A stretch of DNA of 64,000 nt from Leptotrichia hofstadii (GTDB taxonomy: Bacteria > Fusobacteriota > Fusobacteriia > Fusobacteriales > Leptotrichiaceae): assembly GCF_007990525.1 (NCBI RefSeq), contig NZ_AP019823.1, positions 186,001-250,000 of the forward strand, read 5' to 3'. This document shows positions 4,936 through 64,000 of the stretch, in pieces; within the stretch, counting starts at the first letter, position 1; each line of letters starts with the position of its first letter. A program made the position numbers and the translations under genes. The notes below the pieces were generated by a model. It ran no database searches. It saw nothing but the letters and a program-made list of their open reading frames with translations, and was not told where the DNA came from.

Positions 4936-5457
4936 TCTCATTATTTATTAATAGATATTTTTCTATGTTTTATACTTTTTTCTTTTTTTGTACGTAAAGT
5001 AGATTAACCACTATCCCTTTATTTCATAAATGGATTTTATAATAAATTATGAAGTAAAATTTTATTAAAGAAAAAATAACTGTTTGAGATTTTAGAATAG
5101 ATTTTTAAATCAAATAAAATTATCTGCACTAAACCCTGTTTAGAGAAAGAATTTATTACAAATGTTTTTAACAAAGTATGAAAACCTAGTATTTGCGAAT
5201 AATTACAATATAGTTAATAAACCGATGGAGCTTTTATTTGTTCAGCTACGGCTGTCTAACGACTTTTTTGAATTGTGCAAATAAAAGTTGGAGTCTAGCC
5301 ATAAATATTTGGCAGCAATCTTGACACAATTTTAATTATCAAGATAAACCTTTACTGCAAGATAAGGATTTAACGAAATGAGCAATCCTGCAAAATAAAT
5401 AAAATAAAATGATTATTATTAAAAAATAAATAAAAAATTTAGAAAGGAAAGATAGTA
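4936..5457. other. Intergenic region carrying two dispersed repeat elements
   Basis: I see no credible gene here. The stretch contains a degenerate copy of a repeat also present at 55141-55226 (about 5051-5100) and a structured ~170-base element also present in inverted orientation at 54230-54411 (about 5222-5391). Confidence 0.6.
5222..5391 (+). repeat. Dispersed structured intergenic repeat A, copy 1
   Basis: The right half matches the reverse complement of 54230-54330: GTCTAGCCATA, GCAGCAATCTTG and GATAAGGATT plus GAGCAATCCT are shared in the same order. The left half is a hairpin: CTTTTATTTG (5231-5240) pairs perfectly with CAAATAAAAG (5278-5287). The second copy has a hairpin at the same place but with different arm sequence. 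Confidence 0.7.
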
Positions 5458-31129: not shown

Positions 31130-31249
31130 ATGCTAAAAAAACATCAAAAAATAACAAAAATTAAGCAAAAAAATGCGATTTTAATGTCTGAAAAAATTTC
31201 TGTAATACCGATAAATAAAGGGTTCTCTCAAAAGTACGGGTTAAAGTAG
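31130..31249 (+). CDS. Possible 39-residue small protein ending in the CRISPR array
   Basis: ATG 31130 is preceded by AGGAG (31116-31120) at a normal distance and opens a basic 39-residue frame (MLKKHQKITKIKQK...) whose stop lies inside the first CRISPR repeat. A TTGAAA/TAAAAT pair with a 16-base spacer lies at 31005-31032. It may be a real leader peptide, a truncated gene or chance. I do not recognise it. Confidence 0.25.
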   Translation: MLKKHQKITKIKQKNAILMSEKISVIPINKGFSQKYGLK

Positions 31250-31498
31250 AATATCCATTAAAACAAGGATTGAAACTGTTTCATCTCTATTACTTATTAT
31301 AGAAGCATACATGGTTAAAATAGAGTATCCATTAAAACAAGGATTGAAACAATCCCCCCGATACTTTTTTATAACAATCTTTAAATGGTTAAAATAGAGT
31401 ATCCATTAAAACAAGGATTGAAACAAGAGCTGTTTAACCACGAATGACTCTAAATCTAAATGTTAAAATAGAGTATCCATTAAAACAAGGAGTGAACT
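31240..31498 (+). CRISPR. Short orphan CRISPR array (4 repeats, 3 spacers)
   Basis: Four 37-base repeats start at 31240, 31314, 31388 and 31462. The core is TAGAGTATCCATTAAAACAA and the 3' end is GGATTGAAAC. The three spacers (31277-31313, 31351-31387, 31425-31461) are 37 bases each. Repeats 2 and 3 are identical; repeat 1 has two substitutions and repeat 4 has a decayed 3' end (GGAGTGAAC), marking the trailer side. The ATTGAAAC terminus is typical of type I-A/I-B and III repeats. No cas gene lies in the window, so any activity would need Cas proteins encoded elsewhere. Confidence 0.93.
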
Positions 31499-31866
31499 AT
31501 TTGTTAAAAACAACAACTTTTGTATAAGGTTGTTTTTTTATTTATAAATAAAATGAGTTAAATACTTTATTCCATAAAATTTTTAAAATATTTTGTTATT
31601 TTTTATGAAATTTGGTATAATTAACTAAGAATAAATTAGGTGATAGATTTAGGGGAAAAGAAACAATAGAACAAAAGAAATATTTGTTAGTTGATGTAAA
31701 AGAGGCTCTTAAGAAGATAAGCGAAAAAGAGAAATAAATTACAGTAATATTGTAAAAATGGTATGGTGTTTTGGAAAAAGGATGTGGAAGCGGGGATTGA
31801 AGAGGAGTAAAAGAGAAATGTAGCAGGAATTGGAAGAAAGGCCTGCGATTTTGGAAAGGAAGTTTT
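31499..31866. other. Intergenic region without a recognisable gene
   Basis: It contains a short T-rich hairpin just after the array (AACAACTTTTGTATAAGGTTG... at about 31508-31540) and a startless 30-codon frame (31642-31736, RFRGKETIEQKKYLLVDVKE) that may be a gene remnant. Nothing else is visible. Confidence 0.4.
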
Positions 31867-53504: not shown

Positions 53505-54128
53505 ATGGCAGTTTTTGAATTGAAACATCCACTAATTGAACATAAACTTTCAAATTTGAGAAATAAAGATACAGACACTAAACTTTTTAGGGAAAGCTTA
53601 AACGAAATAGCAGGACTTATGGTTTATGAAGCAACAAAACATTTGCCGCTCAAGGAGATTGAAACAGAAACTCCTATTCAGAAAACCACTACAAAAGTTC
53701 TGGATAAACCAATAACATTAGTTCCCATACTAAGAGCAGGACTTGGAATGATAGATGGAATATTGCAGCTTCTTCCAAACGCAAAAGTAGGTCATCTGGG
53801 AGTTTACAGAAACGAAGAAACCTTAGAGCCAGTCTACTATTACGCAAAAATGCCAACAAACGTTGTCGGAAGTCAAGTTTTCGTAGTAGATCCAATGCTT
53901 GCAACAGGAGGTTCAATGATTTACACAATTGATTATCTAAAAGACAGGGGTGTAAAAAATATAACAGTATTAAGCATTATTGGAGCTCCTGAAGGAATAA
54001 AGAAATTTACTGAAAAACATCCTGATGTAGATTTGTACATTGCGGCAATTGATGATGGACTTAATCAAAATGCGTATATCTATCCAGGTTTGGGAGATGC
54101 GGGAGATAGAATATTTGGAACAAAATAA
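53505..54128 (+). CDS. upp: Uracil phosphoribosyltransferase
   Basis: This 207-residue enzyme has the family's [18 protein letters not shown]-terminus, [13 protein letters not shown], the PRPP-binding [12 protein letters not shown] and the uracil-binding ending [20 protein letters not shown]. It salvages uracil to UMP. ATG 53505 follows ACGGAGTG. A terminator follows. Confidence 0.97.
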
Positions 54129-54146
54129 TAAAATGGATTTTTTAGG

Positions 54147-54182
54147 AAAATGCTCTAATTAAAACAATTAGGGTATTTTTTG
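54147..54182 (+). terminator. Terminator of upp
   Basis: AAAATGCTCTAATT (54147-54160) pairs with AATTAGGGTATTTT (54166-54179) with two G-U pairs, followed by TTTTTG. Confidence 0.8.
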
Positions 54183-54229
54183 TATATTTTGATTTTCTAT
54201 ATTACTATGTTTTTTCTTTTTTATTTCTG

Positions 54230-54411
54230 TAGGATTGCTCATTGCCGCAAATCCTTACCTTGCAATAAAGATTTATCCCAGTAATCAAAATTTTTGGCAA
54301 GATTGCTACGCAATAACCTATGGCTAGTCTACGACATTTTTCTGCACTGACAAAAAACTCGCTATACTCAAACAGTTTTGTCAGCACAGAAAAATGCTCC
54401 GACGGATTTTA
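54230..54411 (-). repeat. Dispersed structured intergenic repeat A, copy 2
   Basis: Read on the minus strand it matches 5222-5391 in order (GACTAGCCATA, GTAGCAATCTTGCC, GTAAGGATT, GAGCAATCCTAC). Its hairpin arms, CATTTTTCTG...GACAAAA (54335-54355) and TTTTGTCAG...AAAAATG (54376-54396), pair at 19 of 21 positions but differ in sequence from copy 1's arms. No gene is seen in 54183-54588. Confidence 0.7.
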
Positions 54412-54588
54412 AAGAGTAAAAATTATATTTTAATTATTTAAAAATATTGAGTTGTTATTCTTTATTAGAAAAGTTTGTAATAAATTTCTTATTTAACCGA
54501 GATTTAGTATAATAATAATTTTTTCTTTTCTTCTAAAGCAAAAAAGAAGCAGAATCTCAAAAATTCCACTTCTTCACATAATGATTTA

Positions 54589-61579: not shown

Positions 61580-61599
61580 TACATTGAAAGAAAAAGTTT

Positions 61600-61716
61600 A
61601 AAAACAGGTGTTCCACTACCTTAAAATGAAGGACAGATAAAAACAGGTGTTCCACTACCTTAAAATGAAGGACAGATAAAAACAGGTGTTGCACTGCCTT
61701 AAAATGAAGCAACTTT
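61600..61716 (+). ncRNA. toxI: ToxI antitoxin RNA (three tandem 39-base repeats)
   Basis: Three direct repeats of period 39 (61600-61638, 61639-61677, 61678-61716) share AAAAACAGGTGTT and CCTTAAAATGAAG. Copies 1 and 2 are identical. In copy 3 the segment TTCC becomes TTGC while GGA becomes GCA, changes that keep these two stretches complementary. Such repeats between a promoter and a terminator, directly before a ToxN gene, define a type III antitoxin RNA; each repeat, cut out by ToxN, would fold as a pseudoknot that inhibits it. Confidence 0.9.
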
Positions 61717-63805: not shown

Positions 63806-63871
63806 TAAAAAAATTGTGAGAATATACGTATACTAAAGTTCATTTAAATAACGAAATTATAGTAAAACTTA

Positions 63872-63975
63872 TTTAAAATCAAACTCAAAAGCTATGACTA
63901 TTTTACTCAAACCATAAATTTATATAATTTTAGCAGTTTAATTTAAAATAGGTTTGAGTATATTACAAACTTTTT
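63872..63975 (+). repeat. Dispersed intergenic repeat B (copy 3)
   Basis: It begins TTTAAAATCAAACTCAAAAG and GACTATTTTACTCAAACC, and ends TTAAAATAGGTTTGAGTATA, the same order as 22259-22361. ACTCAAACC pairs perfectly with GGTTTGAGT; in the 22-kb copy the same positions carry different but still complementary bases (CCGAA/TTCGG). No gene is seen between 63728 and 64000. Confidence 0.6.
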
Positions 63976-64000
63976 TAAGAAAGGATAGAAACCTTTATTG

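Follow-up and report, generated by a model that had tools for sequence, protein, structure and literature searches.

The window, a stretch of 64,000 nucleotides from the genome of Leptotrichia hofstadii, contains a structured element at 5222–5391 (copy 1) that occurs again, inverted on the minus strand, at 54230–54411 (copy 2). Both coordinates were re-read in the window sequence and agree with the initial annotation. Copy 1 is neighboured by a 203-aa ORF that matches no Pfam family and by a phosphoribosyl-ATP pyrophosphohydrolase-like gene, and copy 2 by the upp gene and a convergent 62-aa ORF. Short ORFs alone lie over the two copies, one of 62 aa on the minus strand over copy 1 and one of 60 aa with a GTG start over copy 2. 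The half that follows the hairpin is common to both copies (CTAGCCATA ... GCAATCTTG ... GAGCAATCCT), while the arms of the stem are unlike, being CTTTTATTTGTTC.../...CAAATAAAAG in copy 1 and CATTTTTCTGTGCTGACAAAAC.../...GTTTTTTGTCAGTGCAGAAAAATG in copy 2, just as had first been noticed.

The fold of copy 2 lies well outside the range of shuffled sequence (z of −3.9, with 0 of 200 shuffles as good). The fold of copy 1 is moderate (z of −1.8, with 10 of 200 shuffles as good) because its tip is damaged. The borders drawn initially were too narrow, and the left terminal repeat, degenerate in both copies, begins at 5127 in copy 1 and at 54509 on the minus strand in copy 2. The right terminal repeat was recognised in neither of them. 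The parts of the window copies are collected in Table 1.

Table 1. Parts of the element copies in the window
Feature	Position	Strand	Basis or remark
Copy 1, degenerate left terminal inverted repeat CACTAAACCCTGTTTAGA	5127..5144	+	4 mismatches to TACTAAACCCCATTTAAA; position corresponds to the left end of intact copies
Copy 1, A+T-rich left module TTTATTACAAA...CCTAGTATTT...AATAATTACAATATA	5127..5222	+	Common to other copies
Copy 1, hairpin 1, A-type arms, tip eroded	5223..5295	+	Sequence and fold; A-type from core comparison
Copy 1, conserved linker TAGCCATA and long-form middle module	5296..5365	+	Sequence and core comparison
Copy 1, hairpin 2 (GGATT...AATCC)	5366..5388	+	Sequence and fold
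Copy 2, left terminal inverted repeat TACTAAATCTCGGTTAAA	54492..54509	-	4 mismatches; same site in 7 genomes, slightly altered in G011
Copy 2, left module	54405..54509	-	Mean pairwise identity 97.3%, 7 genomes
Copy 2, hairpin 1, B-type arms	54327..54404	-	Sequence, fold and orthologues
Copy 2, hairpin tip motif TGTTTGAGTATAGCGAGTTTT	54354..54374	-	1 mismatch to TGTYTGAGCRNAGCGAGTTTT; chance expectation 0.04 at <=3 mismatches
Copy 2, linker TAGCCATAGG and middle module	54255..54326	-	Module missing in 5 of 7 orthologous copies
Copy 2, hairpin 2	54232..54254	-	Sequence
Third copy, left end, runs past the window	63831..64000	+	Interrupted by another MITE at ~63860-63960

Several other repeats lie in the window. 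The different MITE that interrupts the third copy (63831–63960) has the ends TAGTAAAACTTATTTAAA / TTTAAAATAGGTTTGAGTA. The region upstream of copy 1 (~4940–5110) is itself repeated in many genomes of the genus, and AACTGTTTGAG within it is perhaps the leftover of another hairpin type. A short CRISPR array of four repeat units, three of which match CRISPR-DR7, is located at 31234–31500, and a 39-bp unit stands three times in tandem at 61599–61715, the last one divergent.

A mobile unit spread through the genus

The initial annotation had considered that only the two window copies might exist. This does not hold, since a search with copy 1 found 30 matching places in the 2.6-Mb genome of the organism itself, the window pair counted in. 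With a longer B-type copy as the query, all 13 genomes of the genus were positive, with at least 11–69 matches each; these counts are probably lower bounds, as 40 candidates were scored per genome. Six of 20 other genomes of the taxonomic family gave one to three matches (best E 2e-16). The window elements are thus firmly placed as members of a high-copy, gene-less mobile family spread through the genus.

Cores of the window type sit inside a larger unit, which in intact copies is bounded by the terminal inverted repeats TACTAAACCCCATTTAAA / TTTAAAYGGGGTTTAGTA; the window copies retain the degenerate left one only. From a set of 25 elements, L014 was dropped for an implausible pairing of ends before lengths and duplications were taken, and the remaining 24 intact core-bearing elements span 316–463 bp. 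The 18-nt right end has 123 matches at ≤3 mismatches, as against 17 for the reversed control. The 3-mers flanking the elements are identical in 17 of the 24 and absent as a matching pair in the other seven, the mean after shuffling being 9.0 (p = 5e-5, with one of 20,000 shuffles as high). Flanking 2-mers are identical in none of the 24 and 4-mers in one. The duplicated 3-mers are TTA, TAA and, once, TGA, that is, of TWA type.

Eight loci were joined after excision of the element, and three of these were searched against the genus. For the L071 insertion, G004 and G008 each have an empty site, which holds one TAA instead of the pair seen at the filled site. The L064 insertion has its empty site in G003 and G001, with a single TTA; as the filled site is flanked by TCA and TTA, one side has probably mutated. 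In G010 and G008 the L064 site is spanned without the element, the junction being too diverged to read. As judged from coordinates only, the third site (L021) looks filled in G002, G003, G004, G008 and G010 and is spanned in G011 and G012 (68–73% identity). The checks for target-site duplication and for presence or absence among strains that had been proposed initially thus came out positive, each of two insertions having an empty site in two related genomes.

Inverted ends, 3-bp duplications and empty sites are the defining signs of a MITE, and together with the short length, the lack of coding sequence and the high copy number they establish the family as one by the features tested, so that the "mobile non-coding element" first suggested is borne out. 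What moves is the entire stretch bounded by the TACTAAACCCC...GGGGTTTAGTA ends, and it inserts with a 3-bp TWA duplication. The family with its empty sites is a marker for past mobility within the genus.

Some cores (L012, L016, L019 and L029) lack the canonical ends, and the core may therefore spread by another route too. There are also small elements of 112–118 bp whose ends are similar (L058, L059 and L062), and some B-type elements have a left part that resembles a complete small element (L061); the family is therefore a mosaic. At L055 (262–1992; G000:C1:1024361-1026091) a gene for a protein of 453 aa, named MATE-like transporter by eye from its sequence, lies between two outward-facing element ends. 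This arrangement is a possible gene capture, or else two truncated elements brought together by coincidence.

Copy 2 is found beside upp at the same site in 7 of the 13 genomes (G000, G002, G003, G004, G006, G011 and G012). G008 and G010 have the stretch beside upp without it, and the remaining four gave no such copy among the matches listed there. Across the seven, the mean pairwise identity is 98.2% for hairpin 1 and 96.9% for the linker with hairpin 2 (that of the left module is given in Table 1). The stretch from the core to upp, partly perhaps outside the element, reaches 96.3%, the coding end of upp 93.1% and the other flank 85.6%. The element beside upp (window 54090–54510 and its orthologues) is therefore better conserved across species than the adjoining coding end, which suggests constraint or recent transfer. 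The middle module of ~57 nt occurs at this site in G000 and G002 only and differs between the two, so modules are gained, lost or copied between paralogues while the site stays fixed. Around the insertion point of copy 1, for which coordinates only were compared, matches run continuously across in G002, G004, G008 and G010 (75–79% identity), whereas G001 has two abutting pieces and G003 a 275-nt gap that matches the element family.

An autonomous partner of the unit was sought among the IS5-type and Y1 transposases of the genus, and none was found. A TWA target duplication is typical of IS5 / PIF-Harbinger elements, a likeness that the present family shares, and IS5-type genes (PF01609) occur in 8 of the 13 genomes. 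Around these genes, at 30 genus loci (some overlapping), no pair of MITE ends with ≤4 mismatches on both sides was found, so no IS5-type transposase bounded by the MITE ends emerged; the end pair at L289 has five mismatches per side. Three loci read closely (L285, L286 and L293) have other ends, or none resembling those of the MITE. Unlike the MITE, the IS5-type copies of the own genome (L285 and L293) carry the unrelated ends AGACCTGTTCGATAAC. The copy at L285 sits beside or inside an element end. The MITE would have been moved in trans by a DDE transposase that is now missing or unrecognised and that, in view of the TWA duplication, may have belonged to the IS5 / PIF-Harbinger group. A lost IS5-like transposase is our guess.

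Core architecture and the hairpin tip

The core carried by the unit is ~122–185 nt long and consists of the long hairpin 1, the linker AGACTAGCCATAGG, hairpin 2 and an optional middle module of ~57 nt. The changed arms described by the initial annotation correspond to two subfamilies, A and B, which differ in the arms of hairpin 1. Of 79 distinct cores, 77 could be sorted, 35 into A and 42 into B. The foot, the linker and hairpin 2 are kept between the subfamilies and the arms are replaced. The foot reads CGAC...AGTC in A and CGTC...AGAC in B, a compensatory swap, and one pair of hairpin 2 goes from C-G to T-A with a T-G intermediate. The B tip, read 5′ to 3′, is TGTYTGAGCRNAGCGAGTTTT (TGTYTGAGC-RNA-GCGAGTTTT, with R and N as base symbols); the A-type tip retains TGTTTGA...GAGTTT of this motif and nothing more. 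A third version of the arms, with an exact B-type tip, is present at L116 from Leptotrichia sp. oral taxon 879.

Pair changes within the subfamilies were counted on short forms, of one length for B (30 of 42 cores) and of two lengths for A (25 of 35). Cells changed but still paired number 31 in B, as against 35 broken, and 29 in A, as against 9 broken. Covariation within B is thus weak; taken together, such changes support selection on structure modestly, and the replacement of whole arms gives it stronger support. L057 (~570–940) shows two more hairpin types built in a similar way, whose tips resemble GTTTGAGC...AGCGAG and whose second hairpins are different; one of these second hairpins (AGGGTTG..AGGGAAATGG...ATTTCCCT) is like that of the Methylophaga locus L091.

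The B tip also caps long, mostly intergenic hairpins with unrelated arms in several bacterial phyla. As searched, the motif has 21 nt, with 18 fixed, two two-fold and one free position. When the phylum was scanned with NN in place of RN, 20 of 98 genomes matched (11 of the 13 in the genus and nine outside it) and the reversed control matched none; the R position is a purine in all of the matches listed. Among species-representative genomes the tip occurs in at least 118 stretches, some of which share a genome, compared with about two expected by chance, by simple arithmetic, in 257 Gb. The taxa include Gamma-, Beta- and Deltaproteobacteria, Bacteroidota, Lachnospiraceae and other Clostridia, Selenomonas, Aquificaceae, a Thermodesulfovibrionia bacterium and a candidate phylum; by record titles, L116 is the only Leptotrichia among the 118 contig loci. 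Tip-bearing genomes are thinly scattered: of the 151 in one Bacteroidota family, two have the tip, both already in the set of at least 118, and the other 149 have none.

Ninety non-redundant sites outside the genus were compared, four loci of Leptotrichia type having been left out. The conservation of the motif in this set is a product of the search design; the surrounding hairpins and their unrelated arms are not. The tip is enclosed by a median of 46 pairs (at least 15 at 84 sites and fewer at six), and the mean folding energy is −56 kcal/mol, as against −38 kcal/mol for 270 windows from the same loci. The left arms, taken over 30 nt, are 30.6% identical on average, and the sole further conserved column is an A two bases ahead of the motif. 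The triloop is GNA at 79 sites and ANA at 11, its leading purine being set by the search pattern. In many loci of other genera (L080, L101, L113, L125 and others), a further hairpin (CTTGATTTTTTGGTTCTTTTGCATCAAGGCAAAAGAAC-like), which may form a pseudoknot, comes after the tip hairpin.

As for a gene shared by the tip-bearing loci, the largest of the 25 clusters listed joins 7 of 130 loci. The positions from the phylum scan, inspected by eye, show no clear switch with the replication strand. The motif is present in three stretches of IMG/VR; phage matches to it are weak (best E 0.2 among the matches listed), and no plasmid match was found for one Ralstonia copy. An exact-string search of the literature with 15–18-mers of the motif, whose coverage left most subscription journals outside, gave no match. 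An 11-mer of the motif occurs inside a primer in the available text of a paper on Mycobacterium repeats (PMC10117815).

The mismatches in the stems bear on which strand folds. In folds made without G-T pairs and with the tip excluded, single mismatches embracing the tip on the motif strand are G-T in 33 cases and A-C in 11 (p = 0.001), T-T in 29 and A-A in 8, and G-G in 10 and C-C in 5. Since each G-T read on one strand appears as A-C on its complement, the bias shows selection for the fold of one strand. It fits single-stranded DNA or RNA and not a double-stranded site alone. The DNA energies of the consensus hairpins lean the same way, at −15.4 kcal/mol for the motif strand and −11.0 for the other in B, and at −15.2 and −10.4 in A. 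The tip is likely a pan-bacterial feature selected on one strand. The earlier idea of selection on structure is supported for the wider hairpin class, with its unrelated arms, its single tip and its one-strand mismatch bias, and is backed modestly by base changes within the genus.

The position of the hairpins relative to genes was surveyed as well. Out of 141 tip sites, 20 lie inside an ORF of ≥110 aa, 35 at the edge of a stretch and 86 elsewhere. For these 86, the upstream ORF runs in the same direction in 42 cases and in the opposite direction in 44, and the downstream ORF in 36 and 50, respectively. There is no clear orientation preference, which speaks against a role in the messages of neighbouring genes across phyla. 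In the own genome, 10 of 33 cores are at edges and none is inside an ORF; among the 23 usable cases, the upstream ORF is co-directional with the core in 15, and one core lies between divergent genes. No Rfam family matched at the gathering cut-off over the window elements or over 18 loci. At relaxed thresholds all matches were below the cut-off, the best being to a microRNA model (E 0.006). A scan of L064 found no terminator-like site, and its promoter-like sites were at chance level. The small RNA proposed by the initial annotation thus finds no backing in these searches.

Origin of the hairpins and comparison with known systems

We regard the element as a copy of a non-autonomous transposable element with terminal inverted repeats, a MITE, which spread through the genus with the hairpin core as its cargo, and give this reading a probability of roughly 0.8. 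A transposase acting in trans would have moved the end-to-end unit into TWA targets. Within the cargo, one strand of the tip hairpin would fold as single-stranded DNA (or RNA), and its GC-RNA-GC triloop (base symbols again), next to a T-rich bulge and what may be a tandem G-A pair, would be recognised by a factor of the cell or of a mobile element. The bases about the triloop can presumably form tandem G-A pairs beside the T-rich bulge in a kink-turn-like manner. The arms, whose sole requirement would be to pair, could then drift freely.

A wider reading, which we put forward tentatively and at somewhat less than even odds, takes these hairpins as a pan-bacterial class of single-strand-folding intergenic structures defined by the tip alone (AACTGTYTGAGC-RNA-GCGAGTTTT). 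A widespread putative factor would read the tip on folded single-stranded DNA or RNA, leaving the arms free to change; the spread of the class would have been sporadic, and in this genus a TWA-targeting MITE would have taken it up and multiplied it. An exact 21-nt motif across phyla, flanked by dozens of pairs without shared sequence, is what would be expected if a structure-specific binder sees the tip alone. Were there such a binder, the arms could be swapped freely and the tip never, and the class could account for many unannotated intergenic palindromes.

The same hairpins could have other explanations. An RNA carried by the MITE and kept for its fold, either independently transcribed as a small RNA or acting in cis, for example as an mRNA stabiliser, would account for the one-strand preference equally well as single-stranded DNA does, and also for the 96–98% identity of the upp-side copy against 93% for the adjoining coding end and for the co-directional upstream ORFs in the own genome. 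We nevertheless consider it unlikely, given the balanced orientation across phyla, the lack of an Rfam match at the cut-off and the result at L064; moreover, at the upp site the A+T-rich left module is as conserved as the hairpins, so selection on RNA is not singled out. Less probable again is convergence, in which the tip arises repeatedly as an ultra-stable DNA mini-hairpin without a common recogniser. Mini-hairpins of the type d(GCGNAGC) are extraordinarily stable as DNA, the tip contains GC-GNA-GC, and the very patchy occurrence would suit repeated origin. However, a 21-nt motif that includes the unpaired TGTYT and TTTT exceeds the needs of stability, and both the chance expectation and the reversed pattern, with no match in 98 genomes, disagree with the numbers found.

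The least probable reading, in our view a poor one, is a REP-like palindrome spread by a Y1 single-strand transposase (RAYT or IS200-type) that recognises the hairpin. Palindromes with GGAG or GTAG at the foot and the preference for one folded strand are in line with it, and Y1 transposases, mostly of IS200 size, matched in 10 of the 13 genomes of the genus and in 14 of 18 genomes that bear the tip. Yet the remaining four tip-bearing genomes have none, and G002, G003 and G010 are rich in the element (62, 63 and 58 matches) without a Y1 match. Furthermore, the B tip (≤2 mismatches, ~1.5 kb on either side), the only tip searched, was not found beside any of 60 Y1 loci, of which the genus and the tip-bearing genomes supplied 30 each, and inverted ends with a target duplication suit a DDE-type mechanism. 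A crude scan of the 118 loci for HUH motifs gave one candidate ORF.

REPs are described in the available text of PMC3733652 as palindromes of 20–40 bp. Like the GTAG- and CGTC-tagged REPs treated there, the hairpins studied here are palindromes located between genes, bear short tags at the foot, fall into several families and in some cases have no dedicated transposase. They differ in being far longer, with the median stem given above, in that the conserved part is the tip, and in that all Y1 genes tested are without the tip alongside; neither the REP size nor a tag within a REP-sized unit was found, GGAG or GTAG standing at the foot outside it. The "TIRtrons" of the same text, TIRs beside Y1 genes, share long inverted repeats, some self-complementary, in moderate repeat families, and are set apart by the same result at the Y1 loci. 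The MITE family itself is closest to the prokaryotic MITEs Correia/NEMIS, RUP and QMITE, reviewed in PMC10969869, in the available text of which a term search found neither Leptotrichia nor Fusobacteria. As described there, these are likewise short, non-coding and A+T-rich, with inverted ends, a target duplication, an intergenic position, a high copy number and the ability to form hairpins. Unlike them, the element of this genus has a modular core with interchangeable arms, a tip motif that recurs across phyla and a 3-bp TWA duplication.
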